This document shows positions 2,621 through 18,501 of a stretch of 24,727 nucleotides of DNA, one piece after another. The translations under genes and the position numbers were made by a program. Below the pieces are notes generated by a model, which saw only the letters and a program-made list of their open reading frames with translations, was not told the origin of the DNA and made no database searches. Origin of the DNA: a virus; IMG/VR virus record IMGVR_UViG_3300044984_003522, positions 1 to 24,727 of that record, one strand, 5' to 3'. Within the stretch, counting starts at the first letter, position 1, and every line of letters begins with the position of its first letter.

Positions 2621-4267
2621 TTAATATAGGGGCTTGTCCTTGTTTAAATCTATTTCTGGTAAAAATTTCTGATCTGATGGATGTGCTACAAAATGGTAGT
2701 TAACCAAATAGATCAAGGCTTGTGACATGGAATCCACCAAATCGTTTGACTCATCCGAAGGAAAATCAATACAAGCATTTAAAAACTTATCCGCATATCC
2801 TAATAAATTATTAAAGTTAGGTCCTCGTGCAGGCAGCCATATTCTACCTGCCTCTGCATAAATAGAAACTAACCTAGCTCTTTGTTTCTTGTTATTTGTA
2901 GTTGATCCAAATACCTTATGCTTCAGTGGATAAAATGGTGTAACAGGAATTCCCACTCTCTTTAAACACTGAATCAATGATAAGCCATTTGCTTGCGCTT
3001 CTACCAATACCATGTCTGGAGATGGTCCAGGACCTCTGGGATCACCTAATATTGTATCATGAAAATTATTATATAATCTCTGGGACATTTCTAATAGCTC
3101 TGGCATTTCTACCCTGCCCTGCCATAGATCTAATAATATAATATTAGGTGTTTTAGTTCCAGGTTCTGTAAAAACACCCCATGTAGTGCAACAACTCATA
3201 CAGGCAGTCGCTGAAGTGCTCAGCGCCGTATCCCATGACTGTAAAACAAAATCACATTCAGGTGGTTCCCGCTCACACCACCATTCAAACCAATCCTTCT
3301 TGAATATACCACCTTCTGCTGGCGCACCACGTTGTTGCAGCTGATTAGCATATTGATAAGATCCAAGGGTAATCTTTAATTCTTTTATCTTTTCAGCAGT
3401 AATATGTGCTGGCCATAACAATTCCCCTTCTTTCTTTCTAGGGTCTGTCCATACCTTCCCATTTGTACTAGGAAGAGCAATCGTCTTACATTTTCGTTCC
3501 ACTTCAAATTCATAAGGAAGGCAGAAATGTACTACATCTGGGTTTTCACTATCAAGAATATGGCCACTGACATCAAATTTGTGTAATCTTTGCTGCGACA
3601 CTATACGGCAGAAACGTTTGGGATCCATCCACCGCGTTGACATAGTAAGATCCCAGGTCTCATTGGTTCCTTCACGGATAGTAGGTGAGTCAACATCGTC
3701 TCTATTGTTAGGATCGTCCCATATAACCCAGTGTGCCCCTTCACCTGTGGCCTTAGAACCAATAGATAATGCTATTCTATATCCTGTGCAATTGTTATTA
3801 AACTTAGTGGTGGTATCATTTGTTAATTTATATTTTTTACCCCATAACTTTTGATACCATTCTGATTTTATAAGAGCGCGACAATAATCACTATCACGAT
3901 GGGATAATCGTTCCGAGTGACTTGCATATATAAACTTTAAGGATGGATCCTTTGCCCAAACCCATGCAGGGAAAATGACGTTGAGAAGTGTACTCTTTCC
4001 ACAACGAATGGGAACATTGATGATAAAATAAGTAATCTTTCCATAATATGTTGCCTCTAAATGGTCACACAAGTCCTCTATATGCCATGTATCAATAAAA
4101 TCTGCACCAGACCCTGCAAACTTCCAGGCACGCTTGGTGAACTCATAAAATGATGATTCACATATCTCTCGTTCTTCTTTGATTGATTCGTCTTCTACGT
4201 ACCCTAAGCCTAACTTTTCTGTATTTTCTATGGCTTGTAGGGCGCGCTTCATTAAAGCACTTCCCAT
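2621..4267 (-). CDS. terL: Terminase large subunit (packaging ATPase/nuclease)
   Basis: 548 residues. The product drives DNA into the procapsid and cuts concatemers. The N-terminal ATPase domain has a P-loop (PIRCGKST, about residues 86-93) and a Walker B segment (HWVIWDDP, about 179-186) with the usual acidic pair. The C-terminal half has the RNase-H-like nuclease signature: a QSWDTA strand with the first catalytic Asp (about 341-346) and a later VLVEAQANG strand. Length and domain order match TerL. The start ATG at 4267 is preceded by AGGGAAAA. The portal follows downstream; the tRNA genes lie upstream on the same strand. No small terminase is adjacent; a possible distant candidate is at 12838-13332. 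Confidence 0.95.
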   Translation of the reverse strand: MGSALMKRALQAIENTEKLGLGYVEDESIKEEREICESSFYEFTKRAWKFAGSGADFIDTWHIEDLCDHLEATYYGKITYFIINVPIRCGKSTLLNVIFPAWVWAKDPSLKFIYASHSERLSHRDSDYCRALIKSEWYQKLWGKKYKLTNDTTTKFNNNCTGYRIALSIGSKATGEGAHWVIWDDPNNRDDVDSPTIREGTNETWDLTMSTRWMDPKRFCRIVSQQRLHKFDVSGHILDSENPDVVHFCLPYEFEVERKCKTIALPSTNGKVWTDPRKKEGELLWPAHITAEKIKELKITLGSYQYANQLQQRGAPAEGGIFKKDWFEWWCEREPPECDFVLQSWDTALSTSATACMSCCTTWGVFTEPGTKTPNIILLDLWQGRVEMPELLEMSQRLYNNFHDTILGDPRGPGPSPDMVLVEAQANGLSLIQCLKRVGIPVTPFYPLKHKVFGSTTNNKKQRARLVSIYAEAGRIWLPARGPNFNNLLGYADKFLNACIDFPSDESNDLVDSMSQALIYLVNYHFVAHPSDQKFLPEIDLNKDKPLY

Positions 4268-4329
4268 TATAATTTTCCCTATTAGGAAATACGTTATATG
4301 ATTTTTTTGAAATAAGAAAGATTAAATAA

Positions 4330-4597: not shown

Positions 4598-4672
4598 TGG
4601 CTGCCTCTAAAGGATTCGAACCTTTGACCGAGCGATTAACAGTCGCTAGCTCTACCACTGAGCTAAGAGGCA
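4598..4672 (-). tRNA. tRNA-Asn (anticodon GTT), CCA encoded
   Basis: A complete cloverleaf: acceptor TGCCTCT/AGAGGCA, D-arm GCTC-AGTGGTAGAGC, anticodon stem AGCGA/TCGCT with loop CTGTTAA (anticodon GTT), T-arm AAAGG-TTCGAAT-CCTTT, discriminator G, then an encoded CCA. The gene begins one base after the stop codon of the preceding small gene, so it is probably cut from a longer leftward transcript. Phage tRNAs commonly supplement host decoding. Confidence 0.95.
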
Positions 4673-9461: not shown

Positions 9462-9704
9462 ATGACAATCATAACCCCTAGTGGTCTGCGAAATGATATT
9501 TACAATATTATAAATGAGGTGATCGAAACTAATGCACCTATCTTTATAAAAAGTAAGAACAAGGATGCCGTATTAATGTCAGGCGCGGATTATAGAAGTA
9601 TGCAGGAAACAATGTACCTACAATCTATTCCCGGAATGGTTGAGTCTATCCAAGAAGGCATGAAAGAACCATTAGAAAACTGTAAGCCATTTGTATTTGA
9701 CTGA
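9462..9704 (+). CDS. yefM: YefM/Phd-family antitoxin
   Basis: 80 residues. The Phd/YefM N-terminal pattern is clear: residues 1-15 (TPSGLRNDIYNIINEV) form the DNA-binding/dimer segment, APIFIKSKNKDAVLMSGADYRSM is the central strand-helix, and the acidic, Pro-containing tail (EGMKEPLENCKPF) would thread over the toxin. It would neutralise the downstream toxin and repress the operon through the 9120-9135 palindrome. The stop and toxin start overlap as TGATG, typical of such pairs. Confidence 0.85.
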   Translation: MTIITPSGLRNDIYNIINEVIETNAPIFIKSKNKDAVLMSGADYRSMQETMYLQSIPGMVESIQEGMKEPLENCKPFVFD

Positions 9705-9964
9705 TGTACACATTATTAATGAGCAAACAGGCAGAACAAGACTATATATATGCGTGTAGGGTAGGCCTAAAAGATAAGATCCAAAAGATATTACATATTA
9801 TGGGATCTAATCCTTATGTAATGCCACCACCATATGAAAAGCTTAATGGTAATCTGCGTGGCTGTTATTCAAGAAGGCTAAACATAAAACATAGACTTGT
9901 GTATGAAGTTTTTGAAAAAGAAAAAACTATTAGGATATTGCGAATGTGGTCGCATTATGATTAA
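9704..9964 (+). CDS. yoeB: YoeB-family mRNA-interferase toxin
   Basis: 86 residues, normal for YoeB. Like the E. coli enzyme, which cleaves mRNA in the ribosomal A site, it has the acidic residue in P-x-E (Glu45), the SRR-x4-HRLVY core (Arg64) and the C-terminal His84-Tyr85. All catalytic positions are present, so the toxin looks active. It is translationally coupled to YefM. On a phage such a pair could stabilise the prophage or act in superinfection defence; that is inference. Confidence 0.9.
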   Translation: MYTLLMSKQAEQDYIYACRVGLKDKIQKILHIMGSNPYVMPPPYEKLNGNLRGCYSRRLNIKHRLVYEVFEKEKTIRILRMWSHYD

Positions 9965-12633: not shown

Positions 12634-12845
12634 TAATACATATCTATTAATACTTGTTGATGAAGGGTTCCATCTTCAATAGATTTAAGCGTATCAGATA
12701 CAAATTTATCCTTACCTTCCGAACTATGAAAAGGAATCTTCCCAAAACGTTCGTCGGCAATTTCTTTAAGCATAGCATTGATTTCTTCTGTTTTTTCTTT
12801 AGGTATAGTTTTTAATTTTTCAAACTTATCATTAGATTTAAGCAT
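12633..12845 (-). CDS. Hypothetical protein, 70 aa
   Basis: Not recognised. Lys/Glu-rich helical protein (KFEKLKTIPKEKTEEINAMLKEI), with a KIPFHSSEGKDKF turn and a C-terminal helix (ESIEDGTLHQQVLIDM type). Start overlaps the 12838 gene by 8 bases; stop overlaps the next ATG by one. It lies in the operon of the DUF5681-like gene, so may work with it. Confidence 0.65.
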   Translation of the reverse strand: MLKSNDKFEKLKTIPKEKTEEINAMLKEIADERFGKIPFHSSEGKDKFVSDTLKSIEDGTLHQQVLIDMY

Positions 12846-13332
12846 TTGTTTTGCCTCCCAGCATATTTTCTAGTTTCTCTAGTGCTTTCTCAAGACGTAA
12901 GGATTCGTGTACCTTCCGAGTATCTTCTAATCGTTTACCAGCCAAATTCGCATCCTCAGGCGATATTTCACCACCGAACATAGCGTAATTAACAATATTA
13001 TTGGCTTCCAGCAGATCATCGGATGTCTTAATATCTCCAATATCCAAATTAATACATTGAAGTACCCTCTCAGGGCCGAATAACCCTATCAACCATTGAG
13101 ACATCTTTTGATCCCCAGATTTAATATCATTAGTTATGTTATTTAATGCGCTTTGTAATAGATCTTGAGATACCTTTTTTATTAGAATTGTAGATGCACT
13201 TAATGAACCTACAGGGCGTCCCTTACGCCATATTCTAGGGTCACCCTTAGTAAAGCTACCGGATGTCTTGTACTTTGATTCCTTGGGCTTTAAATCGCCT
13301 ATAACAATAGACTTTTTGATTTCATCAGACAT
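12838..13332 (-). CDS. DUF5681-like protein, possible packaging accessory
   Basis: 164 residues. An N-terminal GSFTKGDPRIWRKGRPVGSLS segment (about 25-45) resembles the glycine/arginine GRP-x-GS motif of DUF5681 proteins, which often accompany terminase genes. The rest is helical, with an acidic C-terminal coiled coil (KVHESLRLEKALEKLENMLGG). A small-terminase role is only a hypothesis: terL is 8.5 kb downstream, though on the same strand. Start ATG 13332 follows AGGGAAA. Confidence 0.5.
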   Translation of the reverse strand: MSDEIKKSIVIGDLKPKESKYKTSGSFTKGDPRIWRKGRPVGSLSASTILIKKVSQDLLQSALNNITNDIKSGDQKMSQWLIGLFGPERVLQCINLDIGDIKTSDDLLEANNIVNYAMFGGEISPEDANLAGKRLEDTRKVHESLRLEKALEKLENMLGGKTNA

Positions 13333-13396
13333 ATTCTTATTTCCCTGTTATTTTCTTTATTATTAGGGAAAGAATAGATCTTTGTTTTTATGTTTG

Positions 13397-14405: not shown

Positions 14406-14524
14406 TGACCTCTAAAAAAAGAGGGCCTTGTTAAAGGCCCCGAGTCTAACAGGGAGGTCACATCTTGGGAGATGCGTAGTATGAATCCTTTCGGATTCCA
14501 TTAAAAGGCCTTGCGCCCTTTAAT
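14406..14524 (-). ncRNA. Structured RNA: five stems ending in a terminator
   Basis: In the leftward direction four hairpins follow one another: 14500-14524 (10 bp, one G-T), 14483-14498 (6 bp closed by a GAAA tetraloop), 14461-14474 (5 bp), and the terminator hairpin 14423-14440 with a UAAC tetraloop. In addition 14406-14412 (TGACCTC on +) pairs perfectly with 14454-14460, enclosing the terminator. The GNRA-type and UMAC-type loops appear only on the leftward strand, fixing orientation. It begins 15 bases past the stop of the 14540 gene. It could be a 3'-UTR-derived sRNA, a phage ncRNA or an attenuator; known families were not recognised. Confidence 0.65.
14414..14440 (-). terminator. Rho-independent terminator (leftward)
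   Basis: Leftward RNA: GGGCCTT-UAAC-AAGGCCC (7 perfect pairs), then UC and seven U (14414-14420). It is canonical and ends transcripts of the excisionase-like gene and the structured RNA. The U-run lies within the loop closed by the 14406-14412/14454-14460 stem, so pairing there might affect its strength. Confidence 0.9.
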
Positions 14525-14539
14525 TTGTTTACCCTATTT

Positions 14540-14737
14540 CTAGGGAATTTCTTTCTTCGGTCTATGAGTCATGCTTTCTAGCAGGGCCCTTACGTCCGAT
14601 TCTTTAATATAATATATGCGAACGGTCCTTATGTATGGTAAGTCTATTGTACCTTCCAGTAGCTTCTTGCTTAGAGTCTGTCTTTTCATCATAAGCAAAT
14701 TGGCAGCTTCTTGTAGATTTAAGGTCTTATCGTTCAA
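14540..14737 (-). CDS. Excisionase-like HTH protein, 65 aa
   Basis: Residues 6-50 (LNLQEAANLLMMKRQTLSKKLLEGTIDLPYIRTVRIYYIKESDV) are a typical MerR/excisionase HTH_17 domain: helix, turn, recognition helix, wing and the IYYIKESDV strand-helix. Such proteins direct excision or regulate early phage genes. It has its own good promoter (14808-14836) and a 70-nt leader, and is followed by the hairpin RNA and terminator, making a one-gene unit. Confidence 0.8.
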   Translation of the reverse strand: MNDKTLNLQEAANLLMMKRQTLSKKLLEGTIDLPYIRTVRIYYIKESDVRALLESMTHRPKKEIP

Positions 14738-14807: not shown

Positions 14808-14836
14808 AATATATAGTAGAACGTAAAGGACGTCAA
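14808..14836 (-). promoter_or_regulatory. Leftward promoter (TTGACG, 17 bp, TATATT)
   Basis: On the leftward strand TTGACG (14831-14836), a 17-bp spacer and TATATT (14808-14813): 5/6 matches in each box. The start site would be near 14801, about 65 bases before ATG 14737. It drives the excisionase-like gene and the structured RNA. Confidence 0.7.
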
Positions 14837-15131: not shown

Positions 15132-15308
15132 CTACTTTTTTTTTGCTTTTAATAGTAAGCAATAGATAATATCAACTAAAGCAATAAATAAAACAGGTAT
15201 TAATAATAAAATATGTCCTAATACTGCTGGTATCATTCTTAATATAGATTCTATAATTTTAAAAAAAAGTCGGAACCACTCTGTAACAAAATGTGAGAAC
15301 TTTACCAT
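15132..15308 (-). CDS. Small membrane protein, 58 aa
   Basis: ATG 15308 overlaps the upstream stop by 7 bases; stop TAG at 15132. An amphipathic aromatic N-terminus (FVTEWFRLFFKIIESILRM) leads to a long hydrophobic stretch (about 27-53) and a basic KAKKK end, predicting one or two membrane passes with the tail in the cytoplasm. With the 15077 gene it may form a small membrane-protein pair, possibly lytic; that is inference. Confidence 0.6.
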   Translation of the reverse strand: MVKFSHFVTEWFRLFFKIIESILRMIPAVLGHILLLIPVLFIALVDIIYCLLLKAKKK

Positions 15309-15829
15309 GTGTATAGTCCATTGTCATTGTTGATGGTTTTAATTATTTCTTTGATATTATAATCCATTATGTATTTAGCACCCATTGAATCCCATATGTC
15401 TTTTCTTTTCTTAAATTGGTCTAGCTCATACCCAGCATTTATCCAGTCTGCTCGTACATAGCTATCTAACCTTTGTTCCTCTGGTCCTGTCAAAAAATCT
15501 ATAACATATGTTCTGCACACTAATTCAGGCCTTACCAGTATGTTTTTCATACTTTCATGTAAGCTTCCCTGCCTTTCTACTTTCATAATCAATCCCTTAT
15601 TAAGCAATAGAGTTTGCCCAGAAAATGGCGGTAGATCTTCTTGCTTATCTTTAGAATCTGATAGCCTAGTTAAATACAACAATCCAATCCCGCGCAAACC
15701 AACGATTAATGAAAATCTATCGTCACCGCCCGCATAGTCATATGGATTGTATGTAGACTTCTTCCCAGTGTTATTCTTTAGTTCTATAACTTTTCCACTT
15801 TTGTTCTTTGGTGGCTTATTATTATTCAT
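15302..15829 (-). CDS. Hypothetical protein, 175 aa
   Basis: Not recognised. It has a polar Lys/Asn-rich N-terminus (about 25 residues), then a compact domain with SLIVGLRGIGLLYLTRL, PFSGQTLLLNKGLIMKVERQ and a C-terminal RKDIWDSMGAKYIMDY region. No membrane segment of sufficient length. It is upstream of and coupled to the 58-aa membrane protein and downstream of the 177-aa gene. Confidence 0.7.
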   Translation of the reverse strand: MNNNKPPKNKSGKVIELKNNTGKKSTYNPYDYAGGDDRFSLIVGLRGIGLLYLTRLSDSKDKQEDLPPFSGQTLLLNKGLIMKVERQGSLHESMKNILVRPELVCRTYVIDFLTGPEEQRLDSYVRADWINAGYELDQFKKRKDIWDSMGAKYIMDYNIKEIIKTINNDNGLYTW

Positions 15830-15844
15830 TCTGTTTTCTCCCTG

Positions 15845-16378
15845 TTATAATATAAATATATCATGATCCTTATCTGGCTTCATGTCTTCTGGTATAGGTT
15901 TCTTTCCTTGTATTAGCCCCCTTACAAAGAGATTCCACATCTCTAGTACATTATTGGGGTACTTCTTCGATATCTCTTCGTACTGTGGCCTAATGCGTTC
16001 TAATAGCAATTTAGGATCAATAGAACCCCATTGTTTGGAGTGTGGCCCAATTCCCGCCAATGCAAAACCTGGACTATTATACCCCATAACGACAAATGGT
16101 ATATCATTCTCGATTAGATTTACCATGTTATGAAGCATAGGCTTAAGCACATCAACATTGTTCTGATTAAAAAATATACATATAGGCGCACCCCTTATAA
16201 AGGACGCACCAATTATAAATATAGCACTGTTTAGCTCAAAGAAAGGCTTCTGCTGAATTATAAATGTCTTTTGATCCAATTGAATGGGACCAGGTATTAT
16301 ACTCAATGGTCCTTTGGTCTTGTGTTTCTCTAGTGAGTCTGAAATAGCCTTTAGTAAGTTTTTCTGCTTGTTTTCCAT
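15845..16378 (-). CDS. Hypothetical protein, 177 aa
   Basis: Not recognised. The first part is helical and basic (MENKQKNLLKAISDSLEKHK), the centre is hydrophobic and beta-like (SAIFIIGASFIRGAPICIFF, DIPFVVMGYNSPGFALAGIG), the end acidic. Its first six codons are copied as a fragment 984 bases upstream, at 17344-17361, where they form the scar of the LRR gene duplication. Confidence 0.7.
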   Translation of the reverse strand: MENKQKNLLKAISDSLEKHKTKGPLSIIPGPIQLDQKTFIIQQKPFFELNSAIFIIGASFIRGAPICIFFNQNNVDVLKPMLHNMVNLIENDIPFVVMGYNSPGFALAGIGPHSKQWGSIDPKLLLERIRPQYEEISKKYPNNVLEMWNLFVRGLIQGKKPIPEDMKPDKDHDIFIL

Positions 16379-16385
16379 AATTACC

Positions 16386-17327
16386 TTATAAAATTACAAA
16401 AGGGAATCTATCCCTGACTAGTTTTTTAACTTCATCACCTATGTTGTTACCCAATAAATCCAACCTAGTAAGGTTTTTCATATGCTCAGAGGTAGCAATA
16501 GCCATGGCACCTACAACACCTATGTTATTATCCCATAAATCCAACTTAGTAAGGTTTTTAAGATTCCCGGAGTTGGCGATGGCCATGGCACCTTCATCAC
16601 CTATGTTGGCACCCATTAAATCCAACACGGTAAGGTTCTTGAGATTCCCGGAGTTGGCGATGGCCATGGCACCTTCATCACCTATGTTGGCACCCATTAA
16701 ATCCAACCTGGTAAGGTTCTTGAGATTCCCGGAGTTGGCGATGGCCATGGCACCTTTAGCACCTATGTTGTTACCCCATAAATATAACTCGGTAAGGTTC
16801 TTGAGATTCCCGGAGTTGGCGATGGCCATGATACTTTCATCACCTATGTCGTTATCCGATAAAGATAACCTGGTAAGGTTCTTGAGATTCCCGGAGTTAG
16901 CAATGGCAATGGCACCTTTAGTACCTATGTTGTTACCCCGTAAATCCAACACGGTAAGGTTCTTGAGATTCCCAGAGGTAGCAATGGCCATGATACTTTC
17001 ATCACCTATGTTGTTATTCCATAAATCCAACTTAGTAAGGTTTTTAAGATTCCCAGAGTTGGCGATGGCCATGGCACTTTCATCACCTATGTTGTTACCC
17101 CGTAAATCCAACACGGTAAGGTTCTTGAGATTCCCAGAGTTGGCGATGGCCATGGCACCTTTAGCACCTATGTTGTTACCCCGTAAATCCAACACGGTAA
17201 GGTTCTTGAGATTCCCGGAGTTGGCGATGGCCATGGCACCTTTAGCACCTATGTTGTTATCTGATAAATATAACTCGGTACCATCTTTGCTCAAATTATC
17301 TTTGATTAATTTTTCTATGTTGGTCAT
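16386..17327 (-). CDS. Leucine-rich-repeat protein 1 (313 aa)
   Basis: About ten 27-residue repeats, each close to NLKNLT-x-LDL-x-GNNIG-x-x-GAMAIANSG, plus a degenerate first one (TELYLSDN). The period and the alternating LxxLxL/NNIG pattern place it near the ribonuclease-inhibitor LRR class; a solenoid that binds proteins is expected. Repeats differ mainly at the exposed positions of the LxL strand (VLDLRGN, KLDLWNN, RLDLMGA), as in ligand-binding LRRs. No signal peptide or membrane anchor is visible. Tandem paralogue of LRR 2. Confidence 0.9.
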   Translation of the reverse strand: MTNIEKLIKDNLSKDGTELYLSDNNIGAKGAMAIANSGNLKNLTVLDLRGNNIGAKGAMAIANSGNLKNLTVLDLRGNNIGDESAMAIANSGNLKNLTKLDLWNNNIGDESIMAIATSGNLKNLTVLDLRGNNIGTKGAIAIANSGNLKNLTRLSLSDNDIGDESIMAIANSGNLKNLTELYLWGNNIGAKGAMAIANSGNLKNLTRLDLMGANIGDEGAMAIANSGNLKNLTVLDLMGANIGDEGAMAIANSGNLKNLTKLDLWDNNIGVVGAMAIATSEHMKNLTRLDLLGNNIGDEVKKLVRDRFPFVIL

Positions 17328-17343
17328 GTTATTTCCTTTACTC

Positions 17344-17429
17344 TTTTCTGCTTGTTTTCCATAATTACCTTATAAAATTACAAAAGGGAATCTATCCCTG
17401 ACTAGTTTTTTAACTTCATCACCTATGTT
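17344..17429. repeat. Duplication scar: copy of 16360-16445
   Basis: 17344-17429 repeats 16360-16445 almost exactly, 984 bases away. The unit includes the first codons of the 16378 gene (MENKQK), the intergenic bases and the 3' end of the LRR gene. At 17361 the stray MENKQK codons run into a 12-codon frame ending over the LRR 1 start (ATGA). It records a tandem duplication whose breakpoint lay just inside the downstream gene. Confidence 0.85.
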
Positions 17430-18224
17430 TTTACTCGATAAATACAACTCGGTAAGGTTTTTGAGATTCCCGGAGTTAGCAATGGCAATGGCACATTCAT
17501 CACCTATGTCGTTATCCGATAAAGATAACCTGGTAAGGTTCTTGAGATTCCCGGAGTTAGCAATGGCAATGGCACCTTTAACACCTATGTTGTTACCCGA
17601 TAAATCCAACTCGGTAAGGTTCTTGAGATTCCCAGAGTTGGCGATGGCAATGGCACCTTTAACACCTATGTTGTTACCCGATAAATACAATCTGGTAAGG
17701 TTCTTGAGATTTCCAGAGTTGGCGATGGCAATAGCACCTTCATCACCTATATTGTTATCCCATAAATCCAACTCGGTAAGGTTCTTGAGATTCCCAGAGT
17801 TAGCAATGGCAATGGCACCTTCATCACTTATGTCGTTATCCGATAAATACAACCTGGTAAGGTTTTTCATATGCTCAGAGGTAGCAATAGCCATGGCACC
17901 TTCATCACCTATGTTGTTATTCCATAAATCCAACCTAGTAAGGTTTTTCATATGCTCAGAGGTAGCAATAGCCGTGGCACCTTCATCACCTATGTTGTTA
18001 TCCGATAAATACAACCCGGTAAGGTTCTTGAGATTCCCAGAGTTGGCGATGGCAATGGCACCTTCATCACCTATGTTTTTACTCGATAAATACAACTCGG
18101 TAAGGTTCTTGAGATTCCCAGAGTTGGCGATGGCACCTTCATCACCTATGTCGTTATCCGATAAATACAACCCGGCACCATCTTCACTAAGATTGTTTTT
18201 GATTAGTTCTTCTATGTTGGTCAT
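17370..18224 (-). CDS. Leucine-rich-repeat protein 2 (284 aa)
   Basis: Nine repeats of the same 27-residue type plus a first partial one. The conserved N-terminus (MTNIEELIKNNLSEDGAGLYLSDN) and C-terminus (IGDEVKKLVRDRFPFVIL) match LRR 1, so the two arose by duplication. The first full repeat lacks two residues (GAIANSGN instead of GAIAIANSGN), a 6-base deletion. Two adjacent repeats use the HMKNLT variant that LRR 1 has only at its end, so repeats have been shuffled or converted. It follows the HigA-like gene by one base. Confidence 0.9.
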   Translation of the reverse strand: MTNIEELIKNNLSEDGAGLYLSDNDIGDEGAIANSGNLKNLTELYLSSKNIGDEGAIAIANSGNLKNLTGLYLSDNNIGDEGATAIATSEHMKNLTRLDLWNNNIGDEGAMAIATSEHMKNLTRLYLSDNDISDEGAIAIANSGNLKNLTELDLWDNNIGDEGAIAIANSGNLKNLTRLYLSGNNIGVKGAIAIANSGNLKNLTELDLSGNNIGVKGAIAIANSGNLKNLTRLSLSDNDIGDECAIAIANSGNLKNLTELYLSSKNIGDEVKKLVRDRFPFVIL

Positions 18225-18225
18225 G

Positions 18226-18501
18226 TTATTTCCCCCTCTCTATTTTCCAAAAATCATATTTGTTTTGCAAACCGATCCAGTAAAATTTATCAGTATTAAA
18301 GAACTTTGAAAAGGCCCAAGCTATTCGGGGCGTTATATTTCTCTTGTTTCTTAAAATACCGTGTATCGTAGATATCTCTATACCAGTTTCTTTGCTCAAT
18401 TTTAATTGAGTAATTTGCATTGGCTGCATCCACTCATAAAACAATATCTCCCCAGGGGACCTAACTGTAACCAATGGTTTTATAGTAGGTCCAAAAGACA
18501 T
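18226..18501 (-). CDS. HigA-like XRE regulator without toxin (91 aa)
   Basis: Has the HigA/VapI signature: RSPGEILFYEWMQPMQITQLKLSKETGI (about 14-41) followed by HGILRNKRNITPRIAWAFSKFFNTDKFYWIGLQNKYDFW, the usual XRE helix-turn-helix and the closing W-x2-LQ. HigA proteins neutralise HigB and repress their operon. No HigB-like frame lies next to it; the upstream gene is DUF669-like and the downstream genes are LRRs. It is probably an orphan antitoxin used as a phage regulator. Confidence 0.85.
   Translation of the reverse strand: MSFGPTIKPLVTVRSPGEILFYEWMQPMQITQLKLSKETGIEISTIHGILRNKRNITPRIAWAFSKFFNTDKFYWIGLQNKYDFWKIERGK

Follow-up and report, generated by a model that had tools for sequence, protein, structure and literature searches.

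What does a run of four hairpins ending in a seven-U tail do in the genome of a phage? A sequence-only reading of the window (the whole stretch of DNA analyzed, positions 1 to 24,727 of IMG/VR virus record IMGVR_UViG_3300044984_003522) had noted this element and had suggested that it might be a phage sRNA, a 3'-UTR regulator, or an attenuator for the genes below 14232. The element was examined for its fold, its relatives in bacteria and other viruses, and its possible targets.

A stable multihairpin RNA behind an excisionase-like gene

Four hairpins and a U7 tail were found in order on the minus strand, read leftward from 14524 to 14414 (Table 1), as the sequence-only reading had described. 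The RNA folded with a minimum free energy of -48.2 kcal/mol, compared with -29.2 ± 3.8 kcal/mol for shuffled sequences (z = -5.0), and none of 200 shuffles was as stable. The stem lengths given earlier for the first two hairpins (10 and 6 bp) were correct, and the third stem was found to be 7 bp rather than 5 bp. The terminator, which probably forms the 3' end of the sRNA and an Hfq-binding tail, was one of three sites of its kind in the region; shuffled sequences gave 0.3. A fifth stem had also been claimed; it does exist, with its arms corrected to the 6-bp pairing of GACCUC (14459-14454) with GAGGUC (14413-14408). Since the U tract precedes its 3' arm, the terminated RNA lacks this stem, and inspection by eye revealed no counterpart among the printed relatives. 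The 3' arm is outside the conserved element.

Table 1. Positions of the RNA, its neighboring features, and its candidate targets in the window
Feature	Position	Strand	Description
SL1	14500..14524	-	10-bp stem, loop GCAAG
SL2	14483..14498	-	6-bp stem, GAAA tetraloop
SL3	14459..14476	-	7-bp stem, loop CCCA; CUCCCA exposed at 14471-14466
Single-stranded seed CCUCCCUGUUAGACU	14443..14457	-	unpaired 15-mer; second anti-Shine-Dalgarno motif
Intrinsic terminator GGGGCCUU-UAAC-AAGGCCCU, C, U7	14414..14441	-	hairpin 14441-14422, 8 pairs; U7 at 14420-14414
GAGGUC, 3' arm of fifth stem	14408..14413	-	pairs with GACCUC 14459-14454; 3' of the U tract, in read-through RNA only
HTH_17/excisionase-like gene	14540..14737	-	65 aa; stop codon 16 nt before SL1; 3' UTR holds the RNA
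Promoter-like site TTGACG-17-TATATT	14808..14836	-	upstream of the HTH_17 gene; 10/12 matches
Candidate target UAACAGGGAG	15838..15847	-	RBS of gene 15302-15829; complementary to the seed over 10 nt without mismatch
Candidate target UAACAGGGA	13342..13350	-	RBS of gene 12838-13332
Candidate target UAAUAGGGA	4276..4284	-	RBS of terL (2621-4267)

The protein encoded immediately upstream matched Pfam HTH_17 (28.2 bits against a cutoff of 27) and a PHROG excisionase family (E = 2e-4). The promoter-like site ahead of this gene is likely to be the promoter of an mRNA ending in the sRNA, judging by its sequence; six such sites were found in the region compared with 3.3 in shuffles, and the evidence from this site is thus weak. 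A promoter scan of the region detected no such site just upstream of SL1. Given a promoter-like site before the HTH_17 gene and none before SL1, an sRNA derived from the 3' UTR is the simplest reading, its release from the UTR being assumed. The earlier idea of a 3'-UTR regulator is thereby favored, with SL1 lying 16 nt 3' of a small excisionase-like gene that has its own promoter-like site. Another short hairpin, CCCUA-GAAA-UAGGG, spans positions 14545-14532 and overlaps this gene's stop codon.

That the window belongs to a phage is evident from its genes, which besides the excisionase-like gene encode an integrase, TerL, Sak4, and an SSB-like protein. The terL product was assigned by PHROG (E = 1e-71) and, among cultured phages, was closest to that of Roseobacter phages CRP-901/902 (38%), a likeness that fits an alphaproteobacterial host. 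A sample of 385 alphaproteobacterial genomes yielded TerL relatives of at most 44% identity and no provirus; a host search in the order of the small genomes around G184 returned nothing. By its Sak4 protein the phage had only one viral relative (L002); the two sequences agree at 99.97% over 6.85 kb and represent one virus. The L002 contig ends at leucine-rich repeats and does not contain the RNA. Since no close phage with the RNA was available, bacterial relatives were used for the analysis of covariation.

A covarying RNA family in Alphaproteobacteria

At gathering thresholds, the sole Rfam match in the window was tRNA-Asn. A permissive search of the element produced suhB/mmgR at 31.2 bits (E = 1.5e-4) and SorX at 22.9 bits (E = 0.0035), neither of which reached its cutoff (41 and 46.6, respectively); no other family was convincing in the element region, and ar15 (RF02345) was not listed up to E = 5. 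Both suhB/mmgR and SorX are sRNAs of Alphaproteobacteria in which a C-rich anti-Shine-Dalgarno segment is exposed ahead of a terminator. The part common to the window RNA, suhB/mmgR, and SorX was ACCUCCCUGUURGAC plus the terminator. Since the ar15/AbcR, SorX, and suhB/alphaR8 models all remained below cutoff, the window RNA is regarded as AbcR-like rather than as a formal member of any of these families.

Five elements make up the bacterial relatives, which are about 105 nt long: an SL1 whose loop is GCAAN, an SL2, an SL3 that exposes CUCCCA, single-stranded CCUCCCUGUU, and an intrinsic terminator. In the closest of them the SL1 loop is GCAAG, GCAAC, or GCAAU, the SL2 loop is often UUCG, and SL3 is of the type ACGUCUCCCAGACGU, followed by GAAG-CCUCCCUGUU and the terminator; CCUCCCUGU of the seed is present in nearly all. 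Two covariance models were built, R1 from five bacterial sequences with the window left out and R2 from 37 bacterial sequences, again from bacterial copies only. The element was the sole match in the window for both, at 41.4 bits with R1 (E = 1.4e-8; positions 1-103 of 103) and 42.9 bits with R2 (E = 1.6e-9; positions 1-101 of 101). On the plus strand R2 scored 7.3 bits, in agreement with the strand specificity that had been proposed. The R2 score places the window RNA near the low end of the full members (41 to 107 bits), and it differs from the family in having a longer SL2-SL3 spacer and no GAAG linker. Its SL1 loop is identical to that of two bacterial loci (L056 and L192), and its SL3 CUCCCA matches L173 and others. 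R1 matched in 152 of the 385 sampled alphaproteobacterial genomes.

A check for compensatory changes in the stems had been suggested for related phages; it was carried out with the bacterial relatives instead, and such changes were abundant. Among 35 sequences, 96.4% of cells were paired and 21 of 27 pairs changed on both sides. The covariation score was 0.504, compared with 0.171 for shuffled sequences and at most 0.135 with slid partners, in an alignment that was fitted to the model and hence favors structure. Covarying pairs were distributed over helix 1 (8/8), helix 2 (5/6), and helix 4 (7/7 modeled pairs). The SL3 pair 85-113 was GC in 32 of the 35 sequences and AU in one; because the window letters read GCAUCU/AGAUGU, this single A-U sequence is the phage copy. 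Homology of the window RNA to the bacterial sRNA family is well supported by these comparisons. It is a conserved regulatory RNA and, by analogy, likely acts as an anti-Shine-Dalgarno (anti-SD) RNA. The phage sRNA explanation is favored by the same result, a covarying sRNA family present in many alphaproteobacterial genomes.

The bacterial locus

At R1 loci the usual order is trxB, a LysR gene, and then the RNA, and a close relative of one LysR protein was found within the ~1.5-kb flanks in 20 of 30 loci, making the association frequent but not universal. The RNA usually lies in the gap 3' of the LysR gene and not directly behind its stop codon. This is the position of the AbcR RNAs in Agrobacterium and Sinorhizobium. 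In Agrobacterium tumefaciens the order is trxB, vtlR, abcR1, abcR2, and the pairing of trxB with vtlR has been described as well conserved across the class (PMC7486931). From this gene order we infer that the LysR protein at R1 loci corresponds to LsrB/VtlR; a PDB sequence search with it indicated a LysR regulator and nothing finer. Around the phage copy the arrangement is different, with no LysR gene nearby or among the window open reading frames that were read or scanned, and with an excisionase-like gene preceding the RNA.

The ar15 model reached its cutoff in none of 23 genomes carrying the R1 family, and no Rfam 15 model did so in 20 R1-family loci. The bacterial family defined by R1 and R2 would thus be AbcR-like by place and parts, with no claim of sequence homology to ar15. 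Across the class, AbcR-like RNAs are common at the trxB-LysR locus, though they stay below the Rfam 15 cutoffs in those 20 loci.

Two other features of the bacterial loci were observed. A palindrome of the type GATGTTGCGTTGCAGCATC occurs upstream of many copies (L238, L241, L244, L245, L246, L251, L173, L174, L070, and L186-L188) and is absent before the phage copy. It resembles PhaR sites, and the bacterial copies may thus be tied to PHB control. Four loci (L185, L188, L070, and L198) contain two or three tandem short units of hairpin, core, and terminator, like arrays of sibling sRNAs.

Comparison with known small RNAs

The window RNA shares several properties with AbcR1/AbcR2 (alpha-r15, RF02345) of the Rhizobiales, which are Hfq-dependent repressors of ABC-transporter mRNAs: the trxB-LysR locus is where its bacterial relatives are found, one of its two anti-SD motifs is in a hairpin loop (CUCCCA, equivalent to M1) and the other in a single-stranded linker, and it has an intrinsic terminator and a length of ~110 to 120 nt. 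Brucella AbcR sRNAs act through CUCCCA (M1) and GUUCCC (M2) (PMC5461406), and for the two anti-SD motifs of Sinorhizobium meliloti AbcR, mutation showed action on ribosome binding sites (PMC8844928). The window RNA differs in that its linker reads CCUCCCUGUUAGACU, containing CCUCCCUGUU and no M2, and in that the phage copy is not beside a LysR gene.

In SorX of Rhodobacter sphaeroides (RF02784) the core ACCUCCCUGUURGAC likewise stands directly before the terminator, but the 73-nt Rfam model has no equivalent of SL1 or SL2. SorX is an Hfq-dependent sRNA derived from a 3' UTR (PMC9438474), and the placement of the window RNA, 16 nt after a stop codon and with no promoter-like site just upstream, would be compatible with a similar release. 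The alphaR8 RNAs (MmgR/SisA-D; suhB, RF00519) also have a hairpin, a single-stranded CCUCCCU anti-SD stretch, and a terminator; they differ in carrying the 10-mer UUUCCUCCCU, where the window RNA has the core GACCUCCCUG, and in usually adjoining an N-formylglutamate amidohydrolase gene. Repression in trans by SisA-D, with the anti-SD motif acting on ribosome binding sites, was shown in Caulobacter (PMC12559287). NfeR1 and the alpha-r14 "cuckoo" RNAs resemble the window RNA in having several hairpins that expose C-rich anti-SD motifs. The three identical CCUCCUCCC motifs of the "cuckoo" RNAs (PMC10746234) were absent from 14414-14524. Like AgvB, AsxR, and DicF of Escherichia coli prophages, the window RNA is a small regulatory RNA carried by a phage, of a kind that rewires host regulation. 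AgvB mimics targets of a host sRNA (PMC12197685), whereas the window phage carries a homolog of a host sRNA family.

Copies in other viruses

The core CCTCCCTGTTRGACY with T6 within 35 bases was found in 41 IMG/VR contigs, and a shuffled core of equal composition in none. Bacteria contained it in at least 118 stretches, with Alphaproteobacteria, mostly Rhodobacterales, among the matches listed; in the sample from the class it was present in 22 of 385 genomes (0 for a reversed-pattern control). Nearly all printed copies of the core had a hairpin before it and a G+C-rich terminator after it. Among the viruses, this short form was often located 23 to 39 nt 3' of the gene for a major head protein of PHROG 371. 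L021 and L024 have it 12 nt behind a major head protein gene of an unrelated family (PHROG 3922), and an endolysin gene ~105 nt away is its closest upstream neighbor in L008 and L028. A SorX-type core and terminator thus stand behind head genes of two unrelated PHROG families (L003-L043, e.g., L003, L013, and L021), and in some phages an anti-SD sRNA may therefore come from the late mRNAs with the strongest expression. In the cultured Rhodobacter phage RcZahn, genes 66 and 67 are separated by an intergenic region with an unannotated core of the SorX type and its terminator (L162, 2440-2630; the core is at about position 59625 of the phage record), a setting that makes the short form open to laboratory testing now.

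A pattern combining SL3 and the seed identified 10 more viral contigs, all matching R2 at 37 to 93 bits. Seven of them (L256, L258, L260, L262, L263, L264, and L265) encoded proteins typical of phages, namely a terminase large subunit, portal, DnaB-like helicase, repressor, or anti-repressor. A protein of L261 matched an exonuclease, and those tested from L257 and L259 matched nothing. Relatives of LsrB or TrxB were found in none of the 10. BLAST of the element against annotated phages returned chance-level pieces only, and one Rhizobium phage match (H42) was discarded because it falls within coding sequence. The occurrence of a host-type RNA in several unrelated phages suggests that a host gene-silencing RNA is used for phage ends. 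The literature searched contained no account of an RNA of this kind from a phage.

Candidate targets in the phage

The pattern TAAYAGGGA occurs four times in the window, in the RNA gene itself and at the three ribosome binding sites listed in Table 1, compared with 0.74 times in shuffles. The presence of two exact 9-mers in start regions had a P value of 0.006 when the CCTCCC part was kept and the flank was permuted. This signal, which comprises two exact sites and one with a G-U pair, was noted post hoc, after the duplex list, and the pattern was not seen in the other phages carrying the RNA. The phage self-targets are a prediction from complementarity. The 15302-15829 protein had no relative in the class sample, and for the 12838-13332 protein a relatives search was empty and there was no Pfam or PHROG match.

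Proposed function and alternatives

Common architecture, homology, covariation, location on a virus contig, and recurrence in phage contigs together make the window RNA a phage-borne member of the family. As to transcription, release, and function, our reading, held at a probability of roughly three in four, is that it would be a trans-acting sRNA of ~110 nt, homologous to the AbcR-locus RNAs, that is released from a 3' UTR and blocks SD regions. The sRNA would be cotranscribed with the excisionase-like gene and would end at the terminator. Cleavage within the A/U-rich segment 5' of SL1 would then free it from the 3' UTR, as SorX is freed from its mRNA. With Hfq, it would pair with SD regions through both of its exposed C-rich motifs, CUCCCA of SL3 and CCUCCCUGUU, and so stop translation. 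Its targets would be host mRNAs (e.g., those with AACAGGGAGG) and possibly the phage mRNAs of 15302-15829, 12838-13332, and terL. Made from the phage's own promoter, such an AbcR-like repressor would be freed from host control.

The homology might be narrower, with the RNA being an anti-SD sRNA of the SorX/alphaR8 type that has only SL3, the seed, and the terminator in common with the family and that carries SL1 and SL2 as unrelated hairpins; its function would be much alike. The suhB and SorX matches are consistent with this, as are the SorX-type phage RNAs, which score 14 to 38 bits with R2, but R2 aligned all 101 positions and the loops of SL1 and SL3 are those of particular bacterial copies, so that we regard it as unlikely. 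If the element acted only in cis, it would terminate the mRNA of the excisionase-like gene, form its 3' end, and shield it from decay, without targets in trans, and the C-rich stretch would belong to a host-style terminator module that spreads together with terminators. The short distance to the stop codon and the strong terminator are in line with such a role, and so is the short form behind major capsid and endolysin genes elsewhere, where a terminator is expected. However, a terminator needs no conserved single-stranded CCUCCCUGUU, CUCCCA loop, or GCAAN loop, all of which are fixed while the stems change, and the bacterial unit is usually not directly behind the LysR stop codon. A purely cis role is thus considered rather improbable.

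The reading as a trans-acting repressor was also weighed against a sponge or decoy, i.e., a phage RNA that titrates Hfq or host sponge RNAs binding anti-SD seeds instead of repressing mRNAs. Phage-encoded anti-sRNAs, AgvB and AsxR, are known (cited in PMC12559287), and CrfA sponges the alphaR8 RNAs SisA-D of Caulobacter through UUUCCUCCCU (PMC12559287). The phage RNA, in contrast, has the C-rich seed of the regulator itself and not a complementary G/A-rich decoy sequence, and there is little to expect from a sponge function. Least probable by far is an attenuator or riboswitch-like cis regulator of the leftward genes below 14232. Those genes do follow, and the fifth stem could form in read-through RNA; yet this stem, the only antiterminator-like pairing, is outside the terminated RNA and was not conserved by eye, the single-stranded part is the conserved anti-SD seed, the downstream contexts of the bacterial homologs differ, and the closest described RNAs are trans-acting sRNAs. 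The attenuator put forward in the sequence-only reading was dropped for the position of the fifth stem beyond the U tract.

The phage copy connects the study of phage-encoded regulators with that of the alphaproteobacterial anti-SD sRNAs (AbcR, SorX, alphaR8, and NfeR1), through which nutrient uptake and host association are controlled. A broader proposal, which we offer tentatively and regard as possible rather than probable, is that alphaproteobacterial phages repeatedly took up anti-SD sRNAs of the AbcR locus as a translational switch, which would silence host nutrient-uptake mRNAs and, in the window phage, time its own packaging genes through seed sites in ribosome binding sites.

Other features of the window

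Two adjacent leucine-rich-repeat genes (NIGDEGAMAIANSGNLKNLT...), unusual in a phage, occupy 16386-18224 on the minus strand, and it is here that the L002 contig ends. A gene for a HigA-like plasmid antitoxin with an HTH domain (PHROG 1381) lies at 18226-18501 (minus strand), and a YefM/YoeB-type toxin-antitoxin pair was identified by Pfam at 9462-9964 on the plus strand. The tRNA-Asn (GTT) lies at 4598-4672 on the minus strand, between terL and small genes.
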